This document shows, in pieces, positions 1-5,142 of a stretch of 5,142 bases of DNA. The number at the start of each line of letters is the position of its first letter. Within the stretch, counting starts at the first letter, position 1. Source of the DNA: Phycisphaerae bacterium (GTDB lineage Bacteria; Planctomycetota; Phycisphaerae; Sedimentisphaerales; SG8-4). Location of the stretch: contig JAUXAH010000160.1 of the NCBI GenBank assembly GCA_030614945.1, forward strand, positions 1 through 5,142, given 5' to 3'. The notes below the pieces were generated by a model. It had not been told where the DNA came from, searched no databases, and was given only the letters and a program-made list of their open reading frames with translations. A program made the position numbers and the translations under genes.

Positions 1-12
1 CATGATGGTTTG

Positions 13-105
13 GTGATCCCACGCCCAAAAAACGAAAACGGTGCATCACTGTTTCGACCCGACATCGACGGCGGCATGCCTAGTTTTCGGATGGTCGTGT
101 GGTAG
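13..105 (+). CDS. 30-aa microprotein with C-terminal PSFRMVVW tail (same gene as 5014-5106)
   Basis: This is the left-hand copy of the gene that crosses the contig junction; on the 5001-bp circle it is one gene. It starts at a GTG overlapping the stop codon of the upstream 100-aa gene and ends with TAG. See the entry at 5014-5106 for the reasoning. Confidence 0.6.
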   Translation: MIPRPKNENGASLFRPDIDGGMPSFRMVVW

Positions 106-107
106 TC

Positions 108-114
108 TTTAAAA
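108..114 (+). promoter_or_regulatory. Putative archaeal TATA box TTTAAAA
   Basis: An isolated AT-rich heptamer TTTAAAA sits just after the stop codon of the 30-aa microprotein. Archaeal transcription starts about 25 bp downstream of such a box, which would place a start near base 135-140. No convincing gene begins right there, so the product would be a leader or small RNA reading towards the gene at 340. The right-end copy is at 5109-5115. Confidence 0.4.
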
Positions 115-231
115 GGCCAGCCACACATAACTTCACCTGCGGGGAGAACGCTCATCCTTACCGGGGATGATCGGGTACGCCCTCCGCTTGGCTGCCGTCG
201 ATCTTCTGCTTGAACCTCGGCGGCAATCACC

Positions 232-1532: not shown

Positions 1533-1700
1533 ATGCGCGTGAAGGCGAAGTGTTCTCGGTGCGATAGTGTAGTTTCATTGTTCTTCGACGACAACGACTC
1601 CCATGAAATCGAGGCCATCGAAGCCTTGGCTGTCGGCGAATATTTAGAGCACAAGTGCCCAAAGTGCGAGGCGTGGGCTGCGTTCGAGAAGCTAGAGTGA
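1533..1700 (+). CDS. 55-aa zinc-ribbon protein
   Basis: This small protein has two CxxC knuckles, C7-x2-C10 and C42-x2-C45, separated by an acidic stretch (about 19-39) that includes a DDND cluster. Four cysteines in two knuckles are the hallmark of a zinc ribbon, common in small archaeal regulators and virus proteins that bind nucleic acid or other proteins. The ATG at 1533 is fixed by one of the best ribosome sites in the window, AGGAGGTGG at 1519-1527, and the frame ends with TGA at 1698-1700. It is an isolated unit: noncoding DNA precedes it and a perfect palindrome follows 21 bp after the stop. The acidic rather than basic character argues for a protein partner over direct DNA binding, but this is inference. 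Confidence 0.8.
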   Translation: MRVKAKCSRCDSVVSLFFDDNDSHEIEAIEALAVGEYLEHKCPKCEAWAAFEKLE

Positions 1701-1721
1701 GCTGACTAGAGATAGTCGGCA

Positions 1722-1743
1722 GGGGCCCAGGATCCTGGGCCCC
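1722..1743. repeat. Perfect 22-bp GC-rich palindrome, possible terminator or nick-site hairpin
   Basis: The half-site GGGGCCCAGGA is followed directly by its exact reverse complement, giving 22 bp of uninterrupted dyad symmetry. In RNA it could form a very stable hairpin 21 nt after the zinc-ribbon stop codon. No T-run follows at once; the nearest is T5 at 1781-1785. A classical intrinsic terminator is therefore only moderately supported. In a small circle it could also be a cruciform or protein-binding site. Confidence 0.6.
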
Positions 1744-1876
1744 AAGCTACTTCGATCCTGACCGGAATCCGATATCCGACTTTTTACCGAGTTGGGCAGG
1801 GGTGAACGTCAAAAGACACCCTCTAGGGAGGGCTGAATAGGCGTAGCCCCTAACCCTTGCTCTTTATCTGGTAGGG

Positions 1877-1899
1877 CACCCCACCAAGGATGGGGTGAT
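1877..1899 (+). promoter_or_regulatory. Hairpin that would hide the ribosome site of the C2H2 gene
   Basis: CACCCCA (1877-1883) is the exact complement of TGGGGTG (1891-1897), leaving a 7-base loop. The right arm contains most of the GGGGTGAT ribosome site (1892-1899) of the gene starting at 1903. In a transcript begun upstream, this stem would block ribosome access and could act as a temperature or ligand switch, or limit readthrough expression. If transcription starts from an AT-rich box near 1863-1868 instead, the left arm would be missing and the site free. Confidence 0.45.
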
Positions 1900-1902
1900 A
1901 GG

Positions 1903-2040
1903 TTGAAAATCGAGAAGGCAAAGCTTGATGGGTTTCGGGCGGCCTGCCCGAAGTGCCAGCGTGAGTTCACCTCCCTGTCCAAGGGCCAGCTGCGGGCGAT
2001 CGTCAAATCCCATGTCAAAATCCACGCTCGCAAGGGGTAG
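1903..2040 (+). CDS. 45-aa single C2H2 zinc-finger protein
   Basis: The peptide carries C15-P-K-C18 followed by F22 and L30 and then H37-x3-H41, a C2H2-type zinc finger with a longer than usual Cys-His spacer (18 residues against about 12 in the classical form). It is strongly basic, as expected for a DNA-binding protein. Such one-finger proteins are typical of archaeal viruses and plasmids. The start is a TTG placed three bases after GGGGTGAT, the same layout as two other genes in this window, which decides the start. The gene is missed if only ATG starts or long ORFs are considered. Its last 29 nt overlap the next gene. It could repress its own operon or mark the replication region. Confidence 0.75.
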   Translation: MKIEKAKLDGFRAACPKCQREFTSLSKGQLRAIVKSHVKIHARKG

Positions 2041-2254
2041 TTCAGCTATCGAGGAGCGCCACCCTCCAAGATTGCTGCGGCAGTACGAATTTTGTGTCCT
2101 GTGCAAGAAGGTGCTGGTCAAAACTGTTTATAAGCGATATCGCTACAGACCCGTCTGCGCCGGCTGCATAGAACACGCTGATCGTATCCTCCACCGCCCT
2201 GGTGGCATTTTCAAGGGGGGCCCCAGCCAGGCGGGTATCGAGCGCGGGGGATGA
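2012..2254 (+). CDS. 80-aa basic zinc-ribbon protein
   Basis: Two knuckles, C28-x2-C31 and C49-x2-C52, flank a basic Tyr/Lys/Arg-rich hairpin (about 32-47), a compact zinc ribbon likely to bind nucleic acid. The C-terminal tail (about 62-80) is Gly-rich and probably disordered. The frame is open from 1925, but that upstream part is the shadow of the C2H2 gene, so the ATG at 2012 is preferred even though it gives a 29-nt overlap and has only a weak purine-rich upstream sequence. A TTG at 2071 would keep the whole ribbon and is the fallback start. The gene ends just before the operator and promoter of the next operon, so it closes the left-hand zinc-protein cluster. Confidence 0.65.
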   Translation: MSKSTLARGSSAIEERHPPRLLRQYEFCVLCKKVLVKTVYKRYRYRPVCAGCIEHADRILHRPGGIFKGGPSQAGIERGG

Positions 2255-2257
2255 ATG

Positions 2258-2272
2258 TTTAACGGTGTTCAA
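2258..2272. promoter_or_regulatory. Operator box 1: TTTAAC-GGT-GTTCAA
   Basis: This is an interrupted palindrome with half-sites TTTAAC and GTTCAA around a GGT centre, one mismatch from perfect symmetry. It lies 7 bp upstream of the TATA box of the AbrB-like gene, starting 45 bp before box 2. That matches a repressor or activator site on the upstream side of the promoter. Confidence 0.65.
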
Positions 2273-2279
2273 CCCTACT

Positions 2280-2286
2280 TTTATAT
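2280..2286 (+). promoter_or_regulatory. TATA box TTTATAT of the main operon
   Basis: TTTATAT lies in the only short AT-rich patch between the 80-aa gene and the AbrB-like gene. A start 22-27 bp downstream falls at about 2305-2310, which is 10 nt or so before the TTG at 2318, so the mRNA would have an almost absent leader. Its placement exactly between two copies of the same operator makes a real promoter likely. Confidence 0.65.
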
Positions 2287-2302
2287 GTGTTTAGATTGGT
2301 AG

Positions 2303-2317
2303 TTAAACGGTGTTAAA
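2303..2317. promoter_or_regulatory. Operator box 2 overlapping the transcription start and ribosome site
   Basis: TTAAAC-GGT-GTTAAA ends on the base before the start codon at 2318. It spans the expected transcription start, and its GGTGTT centre sits where the ribosome site should be (3 nt before the TTG). One sequence may therefore serve as DNA operator and translation signal. A protein bound here would block polymerase loading. Confidence 0.65.
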
Positions 2318-2614
2318 TTGCCGAAGCACAAGCGCAAATCTAAGCGACCTCGAAAACACCGCCAAGCCCCTCTGCCACGTTTGGTCGAGCCTCGCAGCCT
2401 GCTGAAAGTGGGCTCAAGCTGGCTTTTGTCGGTTCCCCCCAAATGGTTCAAGGCCCACAAAATCACGCCAAAGAAGGGCGATAAAGTCTACGTTGCTTGT
2501 AATAAGGATTTAACGGTGTTAAACCCCAAGGACGCCGCCAAGTTCAGGCAATTCGTCGACGCTAGGACAACCCGCGCTCGAAAGCGCCTTCTACGTAAAA
2601 CACCTGGGGGGTGA
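2318..2614 (+). CDS. AbrB/SpoVT-like swapped-hairpin DNA-binding protein, probable autoregulator
   Basis: The 98-aa protein has a strongly basic N-terminal arm (1-22, mostly Lys/Arg/His/Pro). A core at about 27-72 follows the AbrB/SpoVT pattern: a strand with KVGSSWLLSVPPKW, a short helix, then KGDKVYVAC and a last strand DLTVLNP. A basic helical tail (74-94) completes it. AbrB domains dimerise into a swapped-hairpin barrel that grips DNA, and archaeal versions often act as transcription regulators or antitoxins. The start is TTG because the operator ends at 2317 and GGTG lies just upstream; there is no ATG. Two copies of a TTTAAC-GGT-GTTAAA box flank its promoter and a third lies inside the gene at 2509-2523, so negative autoregulation is the natural inference. 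Its TGA is built into the ribosome site of the next gene. Confidence 0.8.
   Translation: MPKHKRKSKRPRKHRQAPLPRLVEPRSLLKVGSSWLLSVPPKWFKAHKITPKKGDKVYVACNKDLTVLNPKDAAKFRQFVDARTTRARKRLLRKTPGG
2509..2523. promoter_or_regulatory. Operator-like box 3 inside the AbrB-like gene, perfect palindrome
   Basis: TTTAAC-GGT-GTTAAA is the most symmetrical copy in the window, with exact half-sites around GGT. It encodes part of the last strand of the AbrB core, so it sits in coding DNA 206 bp downstream of box 2. An internal copy could allow looping or a roadblock; chance preservation in coding sequence is the alternative. A weaker relative (12 of 15 bases) is at 4892-4906. Confidence 0.55.
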
Positions 2615-2615
2615 T
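2608..2615 (+). promoter_or_regulatory. Ribosome site GGGGTGAT containing the upstream stop codon
   Basis: The TGA that ends the AbrB-like gene (2612-2614) is part of the ribosome site of the gene starting with TTG at 2619, three bases further on. The identical arrangement recurs at 2747-2754 before the TTG at 2758. Termination and re-initiation are thus almost superimposed, implying coupling and a fixed protein ratio. Confidence 0.7.
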
Positions 2616-2618
2616 TCG

Positions 2619-2753
2619 TTGGCTAGCGGATTTGACCTAAAGAATTTGCTCGCTGGGCTCCGGGAGAGCGTTGTCGATAATTGTCCCGAGCTGGATCCTG
2701 ATAAGGTGATCGCCTCGGTCGCGCGGGTGTTGGTGAAAACCAAGCGGGGGTGA
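2619..2753 (+). CDS. 44-aa helical mini-protein, first of a tandem paralogous pair
   Basis: The protein is not a family I know. The sequence suggests two amphipathic helices (about 5-20 and 27-40) joined by a Pro-containing turn at C22-P23. It aligns without gaps to the next gene's product, sharing 11 of 41 positions (including D6, L11, S17, P23, D26, A32, V34, R36 and L38) plus many conservative swaps, so the two arose by tandem duplication. The TTG start is set by GGGGTGAT three bases upstream and the stop lies in the ribosome site of the sister gene. Position between two DNA-binding regulators suggests a small accessory or antagonist protein, but no role can be assigned. It is too short for most gene callers. 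Confidence 0.75.
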   Translation: MASGFDLKNLLAGLRESVVDNCPELDPDKVIASVARVLVKTKRG

Positions 2754-2757
2754 TACG

Positions 2758-2883
2758 TTGATTAGTGAGCATGACATAAACAAGATACTCGATCTAGTCA
2801 AAGATAGCCTCAATCGCTATGCGCCCAATCAGGACACTGCCCCGATACTCGCCGAGGTTGAAAGGGCGTTGCGTCGAGAATGA
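2758..2883 (+). CDS. 41-aa helical mini-protein, second of the tandem pair
   Basis: This is a diverged copy of the preceding 44-aa protein. It has the same two-helix layout, with helix one around the D-I-N-K-I-L motif and helix two ending in a basic R-A-L-R-R tail. The hinge Pro at position 23 is kept while Cys22 is replaced by Ala. It starts with a TTG three bases after GGGGTGAT and ends with TGA, 15 bp before the ribbon-helix-helix gene. Two equal-sized paralogs in tandem could form a heterodimer or bind two different partners. Function unknown. Confidence 0.75.
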   Translation: MISEHDINKILDLVKDSLNRYAPNQDTAPILAEVERALRRE

Positions 2884-2898
2884 AAGGGGGGAGCCAAC

Positions 2899-3183
2899 GT
2901 GCCACACAGCACAATGCAAGACTTTAAGCGGTCTGCCTACAATGGTATTTTGATGGATCGCATCATATCTGTTAGACTCCCGAGCACGCTCGACGATCGT
3001 GTGGAAGCGGTTGCTGCTCGCCTGGGCTATTCAAAAAGTGACTTCATCCGACTTTGCATCGAGGAGAGGCTCGGCGGCCTCGGCAGCCAGCAGCGTATCG
3101 AGATTTTTATCAAGGACCCTGAACCTATTGTGAGATTTCTGAAAATCCTAGGGAAAAAGCTCGAGGGGGGCTCGCGTGATTGA
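2899..3183 (+). CDS. Ribbon-helix-helix (CopG/MetJ-like) transcriptional regulator
   Basis: Residues 21-58 fit the ribbon-helix-helix fold: a strand RIISVRLP, helix A from about 30 to 42, a turn at LGYSKSD, and helix B to about 58. In this family the strands of a dimer enter the DNA major groove, with Ser24, Arg26 and neighbours facing the bases. The 94-aa length exceeds a minimal domain, and the tail (62-94) may be an oligomerisation region. The GTG at 2899 follows GGGGGGAG by a suitable distance, but the Met at residue 20 (base 2957), right before the strand, looks like an ordinary family start and cannot be excluded. It overlaps the membrane-protein gene by 8 nt. It could regulate its own operon or copy number; the TTTAAC boxes might equally be its target. 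Confidence 0.8.
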   Translation: MPHSTMQDFKRSAYNGILMDRIISVRLPSTLDDRVEAVAARLGYSKSDFIRLCIEERLGGLGSQQRIEIFIKDPEPIVRFLKILGKKLEGGSRD

Positions 3184-3319
3184 GCTGGCTTTAGAACTCT
3201 TACTCCTCGTCGCCGTCGCTGCCGTTGTCGTTGGGATCGTTGTCGGGATCGCTGCGGCCTGCGTCCTGGCTATCAAAGTTCTCAGAAAAATCACCAAGTT
3301 CCTGGGGTGGATTCCATAA
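3176..3319 (+). CDS. 47-aa single-span membrane protein, filamentous-coat-like layout
   Basis: The protein has a short acidic N-terminus (E3, E7), one long hydrophobic helix (about 8-33, nearly all Leu, Val, Ala, Ile and Gly) with a GxxxG packing motif at G20-G24, and a basic C-terminus (K34, R37, K38, K41). There is no signal peptide before the span. By the positive-inside rule the C-terminus is cytoplasmic. The acidic-hydrophobic-basic order is that of mature major coat proteins of filamentous phages, and the IKVLRKITKF tail resembles the IKLFKKFTSK end of M13 pVIII. That is analogy, not proven homology; a holin, a toxin or a membrane anchor are alternatives. The GTG start overlaps the upstream gene by 8 nt (GTGATTGA) and follows a GAGGGGGG purine run. 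Confidence 0.75.
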   Translation: MIELALELLLLVAVAAVVVGIVVGIAAACVLAIKVLRKITKFLGWIP

Positions 3320-3492
3320 GGCCGACTACTCGGCAGCCGGTGAGCCCTGCCTCGAGTCTGTTCATTCTCCGTGTCGAAAATGGCATCCTCAAAATGGAAC
3401 TCATTTGTACCTATCTCGAGGATTATCACTCAACGGGGCATATCCAAGCCTGCACCCTCGGCGGCAACGGGTTGCTGGCGTTGGCTGGCTAG
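3307..3492 (+). CDS. 61-aa hypothetical protein, translationally coupled
   Basis: The frame opens with a GTG at 3307 inside the last codons of the membrane-protein gene, a 13-nt overlap, and ends with TAG at 3490-3492. The N-terminal third is Pro/Ser-rich and polar. The rest alternates hydrophobic and polar residues and ends in a Gly/Leu/Ala-rich tail, which suggests a small beta-rich domain. An ATG at 3394 could give a 32-aa product. A longer ORF in another frame covers the same bases but looks like a shadow. I recognise no family. Its place directly after a membrane protein hints at a shared complex. Confidence 0.5.
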   Translation: MDSIRPTTRQPVSPASSLFILRVENGILKMELICTYLEDYHSTGHIQACTLGGNGLLALAG

Positions 3493-3510
3493 CATCATGA
3501 GGTGATCGTT

Positions 3511-4275
3511 GTGGCTAGGTCGAATAAGCTGAATAGAACGAATAGGACGAGTTCAGCATCGGATTCAACATCGGGTTCAGGCCCTAATAGGGGTGGTACT
3601 CTTACGTGTCCTGAACCCAACTGCAATAGAGTGTTCAGTGGGAAACGCGCACGGCAAGCGTTGGCCATGCACCGTCTGAAAGCTCATGGGGTACCCACCG
3701 TCCAGCCTAGGATTGAAAAGGATCCATCCATCTCCGTGTTGGAGAACACAATCCGACTTTTGAAGCTCAAGGTAACTGAGGCTGATCTCGAAAAACGACT
3801 GCCGCAGCCTGAGCCTCAAAAGTCATCGGTTCCCTCGATGCAAGAAGCTACGTACTCCACTTGGTTATCGGCGCAAGCCGACCTATTAGAGGCGAAAGCC
3901 CAGGCTTTGAAAAATCCACCAGCGGCTAGCGCGGGGGATAGCGGCGAGCTCTCGGAGCTCCGTGCTGAGCTCCGTGTCGTAAAAGAAAAACTCGATGCAA
4001 AGCGTGATGATGAGATTTCAGCGCTCCGTGACGAGCTGCGCGAGGTGCGCAAGGAGCGAGCTCATCCTGCCTCGAGCAGCTCTGAAAAAGTCGAGCTCAG
4101 CCGCTTGGTGGCTGATACCGTCGATCGCGTCGGGGACCGAATCTCAGCTAAGTTGGACCCCGTCGTTGGCTGGATTTTCCAGGGTAATCCTGGGGAGAAA
4201 AAATTTGCGCCTGGGGCTCGAGATAATTCTGAGATTTTAAAAAAAATCAGGCCCGAATATGTCGTTGAGGAGTGA
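3511..4275 (+). CDS. C2H2 zinc-finger and coiled-coil protein, 254 aa (largest gene)
   Basis: The N-terminal tail (1-30) is polar and repetitive, rich in Asn, Arg, Thr and Ser. A C2H2-type finger follows: C33-x4-C38, F42, then H54-x4-H59, with a basic GKRARQ stretch between. Next come a helical Leu-rich segment (about 74-98), a Pro linker, and a strongly predicted coiled coil (about 147-184, heptads of Leu with Glu/Arg/Lys). The C-terminal domain (195-254) has a helix and an aromatic segment around VVGWIF. The start is the GTG at 3511, four bases after GAGGTGAT; an in-frame GTG at 3502 lies inside that ribosome site and is rejected. The fold suggests a DNA-bound oligomer, as in partition, DNA-packaging or structural nucleoproteins. 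It ends 11 bp before the next gene. Confidence 0.85.
   Translation: MARSNKLNRTNRTSSASDSTSGSGPNRGGTLTCPEPNCNRVFSGKRARQALAMHRLKAHGVPTVQPRIEKDPSISVLENTIRLLKLKVTEADLEKRLPQPEPQKSSVPSMQEATYSTWLSAQADLLEAKAQALKNPPAASAGDSGELSELRAELRVVKEKLDAKRDDEISALRDELREVRKERAHPASSSSEKVELSRLVADTVDRVGDRISAKLDPVVGWIFQGNPGEKKFAPGARDNSEILKKIRPEYVVEE
3522..3581 (+). repeat. Short tandem DNA repeats in the N-terminal tail of the zinc-finger gene
   Basis: Three 9-bp units (GAATAAGCT, GAATAGAAC, GAATAGGAC at 3522-3548) encode NKL-NRT-NRT. They are followed by two 12-bp units of TTCARCATCGGR (3552-3575) and the beginning of a third. Such microrepeats let a disordered tail change length by slippage. Confidence 0.75.
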
Positions 4276-4286
4276 GGAGTGATATC

Positions 4287-4712
4287 GTGGAAGGAGAAAC
4301 ACCTGGGGATCGGGTCGAAATTCTGCGGCGTAAGATTGCAAGCCTCCGGCCCAACCTTCTCAGTCGAATCGGTCAAAGTGACGTGGGTGATCTCCAGCCG
4401 GTTTCAGTTCCTCTGACCGGCCAAAACCTGCGCATCGTGAGCGCTGCCGGTGATAAGGTAGACCAACCTAGGGAGGTGGTCGCAACCGAACGCTCTGACC
4501 CGAGCTTCGCCGGCCCTCGCGCTCCTGGTCCTCTCATGTCGATCATCTCAACCCTGCTGCAGCCACCTCAACCATCCCAGGCTGAGCTTGAAGCGGTCCG
4601 ACTTGCTGAGCGCCAACGTGCTAGAGCTGAACTAGCTCGGGCTGAGCAGCTTCGACGCGAGCGCGAGGCTGCAGCTGATAAGGCTCGGGCCGAAAAGCCG
4701 GCGGTGTTGTAA
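4287..4712 (+). CDS. 141-aa protein with charged helical C-terminus
   Basis: No known family is evident. The N-terminal part (1-25) is an amphipathic charged helix, the middle (26-80) is probably beta and loop with many Pro, Val and Gly, and a hydrophobic patch PLMSIISTLL lies at about 82-91. The tail (99-136) is a continuous Ala/Arg/Glu/Leu helix typical of a coiled coil or long single helix. The start is the GTG at 4287, three bases after GGAGTGAT; the frame-opening GTG at 4272 lies inside the previous gene's stop region and has no ribosome site. It may assemble with the coiled coil of the upstream protein, given adjacency and matching helix type. The next gene begins 2 bases after its TAA. 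Confidence 0.8.
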   Translation: MEGETPGDRVEILRRKIASLRPNLLSRIGQSDVGDLQPVSVPLTGQNLRIVSAAGDKVDQPREVVATERSDPSFAGPRAPGPLMSIISTLLQPPQPSQAELEAVRLAERQRARAELARAEQLRREREAAADKARAEKPAVL

Positions 4713-4714
4713 TC

Positions 4715-5017
4715 ATGATCTCCGTTGAAGTTCTCGTGGACCTCCTGGGAATCCGCAAAAACTATCGATCCTACGCTGGCTCGTTAGATCCGGCTAGGCC
4801 TGCAAAGTTAAACGTGCTGTCTGACCTGGGTCGCCCTGGCAAGAGGGGCTGGCTCACAAATGACGATACGACACTAAGCTTCCTGGCCACGTTCAACGGT
4901 GGTGAACCTGTCGAAGTCATGGCCGGCGAGCGAATCCCTCTCGACTACCTCGTTATCGAAACGGTCCTTTTACGTGCGGCTGCCGGATCCCCCACCTATC
5001 GCATGATGGTTTGGTGA
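4715..5017 (+). CDS. 100-aa beta-rich protein ending in PTYRMMVW
   Basis: The sequence alternates hydrophobic and polar residues through most of its length (for example VEVMAGERIPLDYLVIETVLL at 66-86, split by turns), suggesting a compact beta-sandwich or barrel. It ends AGSPTYRMMVW, with Trp as the final residue. Small beta proteins with a late AGE-R-I-P-like strand and terminal hydrophobic strand occur as phage and virus structural proteins, so a virion or decoration protein is a reasonable but weak guess. There is no signal peptide or membrane span. The ATG start has GGTG about 8 nt upstream inside the previous gene. The stop TGA overlaps the GTG of the junction-spanning microprotein, whose C-terminus repeats the same motif. 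Confidence 0.8.
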   Translation: MISVEVLVDLLGIRKNYRSYAGSLDPARPAKLNVLSDLGRPGKRGWLTNDDTTLSFLATFNGGEPVEVMAGERIPLDYLVIETVLLRAAAGSPTYRMMVW

Positions 5018-5142
5018 TCCCACGCCCAAAAAACGAAAACGGTGCATCACTGTTTCGACCCGACATCGACGGCGGCATGCCTAGTTTTCGGATGGTCGTG
5101 TGGTAGTCTTTAAAAGGCCAGCCACACATAACTTCACCTGCG
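5002..5142. repeat. Right copy of the 141-bp terminal repeat
   Basis: This stretch is identical to bases 1-141 and begins within the last codons of the 100-aa gene. It shows that base 5001 is followed by base 1 on a circle. Annotations here duplicate those at the left end. Confidence 0.95.
5014..5106 (+). CDS. 30-aa microprotein crossing the circle junction, tail paralogous to the 100-aa protein
   Basis: On the linear contig this gene is seen whole only because of the terminal repeat; it is the same as 13-105. It starts with GTG at 5014 overlapping the TGA of the 100-aa gene (GTGA), or with the in-frame TTG three bases earlier, and ends TAG. Its last residues, P23-S-F-R-M-V-V-W30, match P93-T-Y-R-M-M-V-W100 of the upstream protein, and a preceding LFR aligns with LLR. 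The codons differ almost everywhere while the residues are kept, which argues for selection on protein. It may be the detached last hairpin of the same fold, a competitor, or a peptide recognised by a shared partner. The short length keeps confidence moderate. Confidence 0.6.
   Translation: MIPRPKNENGASLFRPDIDGGMPSFRMVVW

Follow-up and report, generated by a model that had tools for sequence, protein, structure and literature searches.

Gene organization and terminal repeat of the element

The window, by which we mean the whole stretch of 5,142 nt that was analysed, carries one identical 141-base sequence at both of its ends, which gives a circle of 5001 bp. One common assembler uses k-mers of up to 141, and the window is best read from its sequence as a 5001-bp circle whose overlap is included in the written sequence. 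All placed genes point rightward and lie inside positions 1533–5106. The last long gene of this array encodes a protein of 100 amino acids, and its stop codon overlaps the start of a second, much shorter open reading frame (ORF) of 30 codons (Table 1). The array is tight, with six of the nine other intergenic gaps falling between −8 and +15 nt.

Table 1. Coordinates of the two tails, the frames that carry them and the terminal repeat in the 5,142-nt window.
Feature	Position	Strand	Remark
Gene for the 100-aa protein, final long gene of the rightward array, ending GSPTYRMMVW-TGA	4715..5017	+	The window's own copy is the only one found
Tail A, GSPTYRMMVW	4985..5014	+	C-terminus of the 100-aa protein
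30-aa ORF VIPRPKNENGASLFRPDIDGGMPSFRMVVW, GTG start, TAG stop; proposed coupled microprotein	5014..5106	+	
GTGA, start of the 30-aa frame overlapping the stop of the 100-aa gene by four bases (−4 nt)	5014..5017	+	
Tail B, GMPSFRMVVW	5074..5103	+	C-terminus of the 30-aa frame
Second copy of the 30-aa ORF within the terminal repeat	13..105	+	Assembly duplicate, no second gene
Exact terminal repeat, left copy	1..141	+	Equals 5002–5142, closes the 5001-bp circle
Exact terminal repeat, right copy	5002..5142	+	Equals 1–141

An initial sequence-only reading of this DNA had described the 30-aa gene as being cut by the contig ends. This was mistaken, because the terminal repeat contains the complete frame, which is present in full at both ends of the window. 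If annotation overlooks the frame, its small size would be a likelier cause than the contig ends.

Five of the placed genes, located in 1903–4287, have a TTG or GTG start that lies 3–4 bases 3ˊ of the sequence GTGAT, and the host may thus be archaeal. Judged by these start signals alone, the element itself is possibly archaeal.

Two similar C-terminal tails in overlapping frames

The feature that first drew attention to this region was the presence of PTYRMMVW at the end of the 100-aa ORF and PSFRMVVW at the end of the 30-aa frame, each with a tryptophan immediately before the stop. Both sequences were confirmed, and the match extends over 10 residues, two more than had been recognized. Six of the 10 positions are identical (G, P, R, M, V, W) and another three are conservative replacements (T/S, Y/F, M/V), yielding an end-anchored BLOSUM62 score of 42 and the shared end pattern G-x-P-[ST]-[FY]-R-M-x-V-W. 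Both reading frames and both stops line up in this alignment, and the second tail lies in the directly following, overlapping frame.

The significance of this score was assessed against several null distributions, with DNA nulls generated as first-order Markov resamplings of the 5001-bp unit. When every ORF of 20 aa or more was paired with every other, a score of 42 was reached in none of 60 resamplings (maximum 32) and in none of 1000 further resamplings (maximum 40). Neighbouring pairs, defined as an ORF of at least 80 aa together with any stop-ended tail up to 300 nt downstream, likewise failed to reach this score in 1000 resamplings (maximum 30) and among 5945 natural pairs (maximum 36). 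The natural pairs came from 207 kb of virus DNA, drawn in portions from five records, of which four are archaeal viruses and one is lambda. The widest null for a single tail compared tail A with all stop-ended tails of the resampled circle, in six frames. Here, 42 was observed once in 1500 resamplings; a Gumbel fit of this null yields 3e-5, which is below the 1/1500 seen. Shuffling the residues of the 30-mer gave 42 in 31 of 50,000 cases with free local alignment at ordinary gap costs, in 263 of 50,000 with soft gap costs, and in 0 of 200,000 with the tail anchored. In the circle itself, the runner-up partner of tail A scores 16 among 373 stop-ended tails from both strands (both tails included), and the maximum score against either tail elsewhere in the six frames of the window is 26.

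These distributions bear directly on the possibility that a Trp-ended terminal stretch arose twice by chance or convergence and that the 30-aa frame is no gene. The one hit in the widest null and the free-alignment shuffles can be cited for this explanation, as can the neutral codon usage of the frame and the ease with which such a frame stays open, both of which are described below. It is opposed by the nulls for all ORF pairs (0/1000) and for neighbours (0/1000 and 0/5945), and by the placement of the match, which lies in the immediately following overlapping frame and is aligned to both stop codons. The sequence-only reading had held the match to be improbable as chance, and this judgement is borne out by the absence of a score of 42 from the ORF-pair and neighbour nulls and its occurrence in 1/1500 of the widest. 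A chance match, at about 1/1000 for the widest look and lower for neighbours, is unlikely. Coincidence still retains a low but appreciable probability in our assessment because the earlier reader examined many things. At the level of sequence, the tail pair is currently a statistically real likeness within a single element, but one based on ten residues.

Likeness of residues versus likeness of DNA

The codons of the two tails differ at two of 10 first positions, three of 10 second positions and seven of 10 third positions. Differences thus affect five of 20 first and second positions versus seven of the eight third positions that are free to change (the two identical codons ATG and TGG being left out; Fisher p 0.004), a contrast that is weakened by the choice of the tail pair for its protein likeness and that alone is no proof of selection. 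Of the eight codons in the tails considered by the sequence-only reading, six differ. The conclusion of that reading that the tails do not stem from a recent DNA duplication holds, given the seven differences at eight changeable third positions. Because first and second positions are mostly kept and third positions are saturated, a recent copy is excluded, any duplication must be old, and the likeness resides in the residues.

At the DNA level, 16 of 23 bases around the stops are identical, and the next best places in the element, of which there are three, have 14. No place in the element matches this stretch better, and the two copies lie 89 bases apart, which can be cited for a DNA or RNA element without any peptide, for instance a repeat at the array's end that serves in recombination, processing or the binding of a protein. 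We consider such an element very improbable. The matching bases keep the register of the two frames and of their stops, the changeable third positions are saturated, and a search for a third copy of the tail DNA with three or fewer mismatches found none. Furthermore, the junction region folds no clearly better than its shuffled versions (z −0.92; 41 of 200 shuffles as good), and searches for an RNA explanation gave no Rfam match (E <= 1) and no tRNA.

An old duplication of a coding sequence is the main rival to the reading that we favour, although we regard it as unlikely. Under this scenario, the 100-aa gene, whole or just its 3ˊ end, was copied in tandem, and the copy was selected until its silent sites were saturated and was then truncated to a nearly idle frame that retains the tail. 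Precedent exists within the element, which holds another tandem pair, made up of small genes that look related (2619–2753 and 2758–2883), with a 46-nt direct repeat at 72%, and local duplication has therefore probably occurred there. The neutral coding score of the 30-aa frame and its lack of a ribosome-binding site of its own would also fit a relic. However, the likeness expected along the aligned length of tandem paralogues was not found, as the alignment is confined to the tail. Specifically, residues 1–20 of the 30-mer aligned with residues 71–90 of the 100-aa protein score 11, a value reached by 16,506 of 20,000 shuffles (17,094 of 20,000 with soft gaps). Moreover, if a whole copy had decayed, one would not expect survival of just the ten final codons together with differences at seven of eight changeable third positions.

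Evidence regarding translation of the 30-aa frame

Codon usage, trained on the ten other placed genes, is neutral for the 30-aa frame at −0.037 log2 units per codon, which is the best value of the six frames at its place. The same codon score is equalled by 20% of 936 stop-free stretches of 30 codons in bases 106–1480. This test has little power, because the 100-aa gene and the 41-aa gene, when left out of training, also score near zero (0.011 and −0.039, respectively). In 33% of trials, chance alone kept a frame open over 29 codons.

When the bases upstream of the placed genes were read by eye, purine-rich start signals were seen for eight of the ten other genes, GTGAT being included in five, and the genes for the 98-aa and 100-aa proteins had GGTGTT as their sole start-signal sequence. 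By the same inspection, the 30-aa frame lacks a ribosome-binding-like sequence of its own. It would therefore rely on reinitiation at the overlap. The GTGA sequence at the junction is an NTGA stop-start overlap of the type that characterizes translationally coupled (−4 nt) gene pairs. One study states that, in archaea and bacteria, −4 and −1 nt overlaps far outnumber all others, that translational coupling needs such short overlaps, and that short overlaps are enriched among the subunits of heteromeric complexes (PMC10666635).

A different route to the second tail would be a −1 frameshift, in which ribosomes slip while reading the 36 final codons of the 100-aa gene and generate a longer form whose second tail replaces or follows the old one. 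The −1 register is open from 4906 to 5103, and a run of five C nucleotides at 4989–4993 allows re-pairing of a single tRNA. Phage structural genes with frameshifted C-terminal forms exist. However, a scan of the end of the 100-aa frame, from about 4900 to 5012, revealed no canonical X_XXY_YYZ heptamer, and the GTGA start offers a simpler route. We therefore view a frameshift as quite unlikely.

A proposed coupled microprotein with a second docking tail

The explanation that we tentatively prefer, with confidence somewhat short of even, is that translation of the 30-aa frame is coupled to that of the 100-aa gene and yields a microprotein whose docking tail or strand corresponds, in diverged form, to the C-terminus of the larger protein. 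This microprotein would be made by termination-reinitiation from the 100-aa gene via the GTGA overlap, and its ten C-terminal residues would represent a diverged second version of the terminal peptide of the 100-aa protein. Both tails would then most probably dock at a single shared site: a partner might bind them as a C-terminal recognition signal, or they might form the final strand of an assembly whose building block is the 100-aa protein. Presumably, a microprotein produced in step with the big subunit could cap, fill or compete for the shared site. We infer translation of the 30-mer, its docking and its capping or filling role.

A more specific version of this proposal is that, in a virus-like element, the sole job of the microprotein made via the four-base overlap is to carry a duplicate of the strand or docking tail found at the C-terminus of an assembly subunit, and that it caps or completes this subunit in trans at a set ratio, with the second copy arising from separate DNA and not from internal initiation. 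This version, which assumes that the element may be virus-like, is speculative and appears improbable in its full form.

If the coupled microprotein is real, the arrangement would be a compact means of setting the ratio of subunit to terminator, or of providing two ligands for one site, from a single ribosome pass. The frame would also be small enough for gene calling to miss, and the G-x-P-[ST]-[FY]-R-M-x-V-W end would serve as a handle for partner proteins in elements that have few recognisable genes.

Comparison with known systems

Translationally coupled gene pairs with a −4 nt overlap, which proceed by termination-reinitiation, are described for archaea and bacteria in two studies (PMC10666635, PMC6728339). 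The pair examined here resembles them in its GTGA overlap and in closing a tightly packed array of genes on one strand. It differs in that the downstream product would be just 30 aa long and would end in a repeat of the upstream product's C-terminal peptide, and in that its coupling is predicted from sequence.

In phage lambda, the C and Nu3 genes both end at position 5737 (J02459), such that a large and a small product have a common C-terminus by way of an internal in-frame start. Our pair would likewise combine a large and a small product with a common C-terminal part. However, one DNA stretch encodes both lambda products, whereas the two tails of this element are encoded by two stretches in different frames and are diverged versions of each other.

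For archaeal threads, one report describes donor-strand complementation involving Saci_0406 and a putative cap, Saci_0405, and shows that archaeal subunits can join through a strand given in trans, in that case an N-terminal one (PMC9715654). The resemblance to the proposed microprotein would lie in the working idea only, namely that a strand is supplied in trans and that a neighbouring protein may be able to cap. In the threads, folded filament subunits carry the strand at their N-terminus, whereas the tails of the present pair are C-terminal.

A further lead comes from the small beta-sandwich virion proteins of tailed phages, for example head spike base or decoration proteins. The 100-aa protein is of similar size (about 100 aa) and is rich in predicted strands, although it has no significant family or Foldseek match and these strands are taken from a model with a mean pLDDT of 47.

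Structure models and search for relatives

In this single-sequence model of the 100-aa protein, residues 91–100, which comprise tail A, have a pLDDT of about 34 and form no strand. The corresponding model of the 30-mer (mean pLDDT 65) is without any strand of three or more residues, and both models are of too low a quality to reveal one. The earlier proposal of an assembly or sorting tail, or of a strand supplied in trans, thus gains no support from them. The low-confidence model of the 100-aa protein had no Foldseek match at E <= 0.001, and the best viral row was a 98-aa uncharacterised Caudovirales protein at E 0.03. In profile searches, the 100-aa protein had no match in Pfam or NCBIfam and one in PHROG at E 0.41. 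More generally, searches of ten proteins each against Pfam, PHROG and NCBIfam produced no significant match to a replication or capsid protein of known family.

A set of 5.8 billion proteins yielded 15 candidates for the 100-aa protein, among which the only match was the protein itself. Viral contigs contained 20 stretches that matched its pattern, none of which was confirmed, and tblastn with this protein gave no match in phages or plasmids. A degenerate DNA pattern of the shared tail had 0 matches in viral contigs. Similar searches of viral contigs with the 257-aa, 98-aa and 146-aa proteins confirmed 0 of 14, 0 of 39 and 0 of 36 stretches, respectively. With an alignment of the 254-aa form and its relative P0004, for which the two search patterns came from outside the best conserved block, 0 of 35 stretches were confirmed in viral contigs and 0 of 56 in genome contigs; with the best conserved block (A3) alone, the corresponding counts were 0 of 30 and 0 of 15. 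The whole window by blastn and the 254-aa form by tblastn had no match in phages or plasmids.

Relatives were found for two other proteins of the array, in each case on a short contig. The 98-aa protein has a close relative, P0002, with 92–95% identity, on a contig of 1366 bp. The 254-aa protein has a distant relative, P0004, with an identity of 39% by BLAST and 47% in the alignment; the longest contig that contains P0004 measures 2754 bp.

Additional features of the element

A comparison at the protein level indicates that the longer N-terminus of P0002 resembles the translated stretch upstream of the 98-aa gene, where the window has a TAG. In the same region, the sequence GTTTAACGGTGTTNAA is present in three similar copies (at least 88% to the reference) at 2257–2272, 2302–2317 and 2508–2523, which stand just upstream of and inside the 98-aa gene, and a weaker copy is located at 4891–4906. 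These copies are candidates for operators or iterons.

The 254-aa protein (3511–4275) has, by eye, an apparent C2H2 finger and a coiled coil, and has no Pfam match above the cut-off. Its block EKVELSRLVA[DE]TVDRVGDRISAK[LF]DPV[VI]GWIF is nearly unchanged in the otherwise far more diverged P0004, which points to a functional core.

The tandem small genes at 2619–2753 (44 aa) and 2758–2883 (41 aa) have a common start signal, GGGGTGATnCGTTG, and the 46-nt repeat at their starts occupies 2607–2652 and 2746–2791. From these sequences, the two genes are likely to be a diverged duplicate pair.

A strong imperfect palindrome at 1202–1265 has 21-nt arms that are 95% complementary and includes C-run and G-run tracts. 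It sits in a region of about 1.4 kb (106–1530) without a placed gene, and its surroundings (1195–1275) fold with a z of −4.0 compared to shuffled sequences. As a guess, this palindrome is possibly a replication origin or a packaging signal. Finally, the gene at 2899–3183 encodes a ribbon-helix-helix (CopG-type) regulator, with a match to Pfam RHH_1 above the cut-off.
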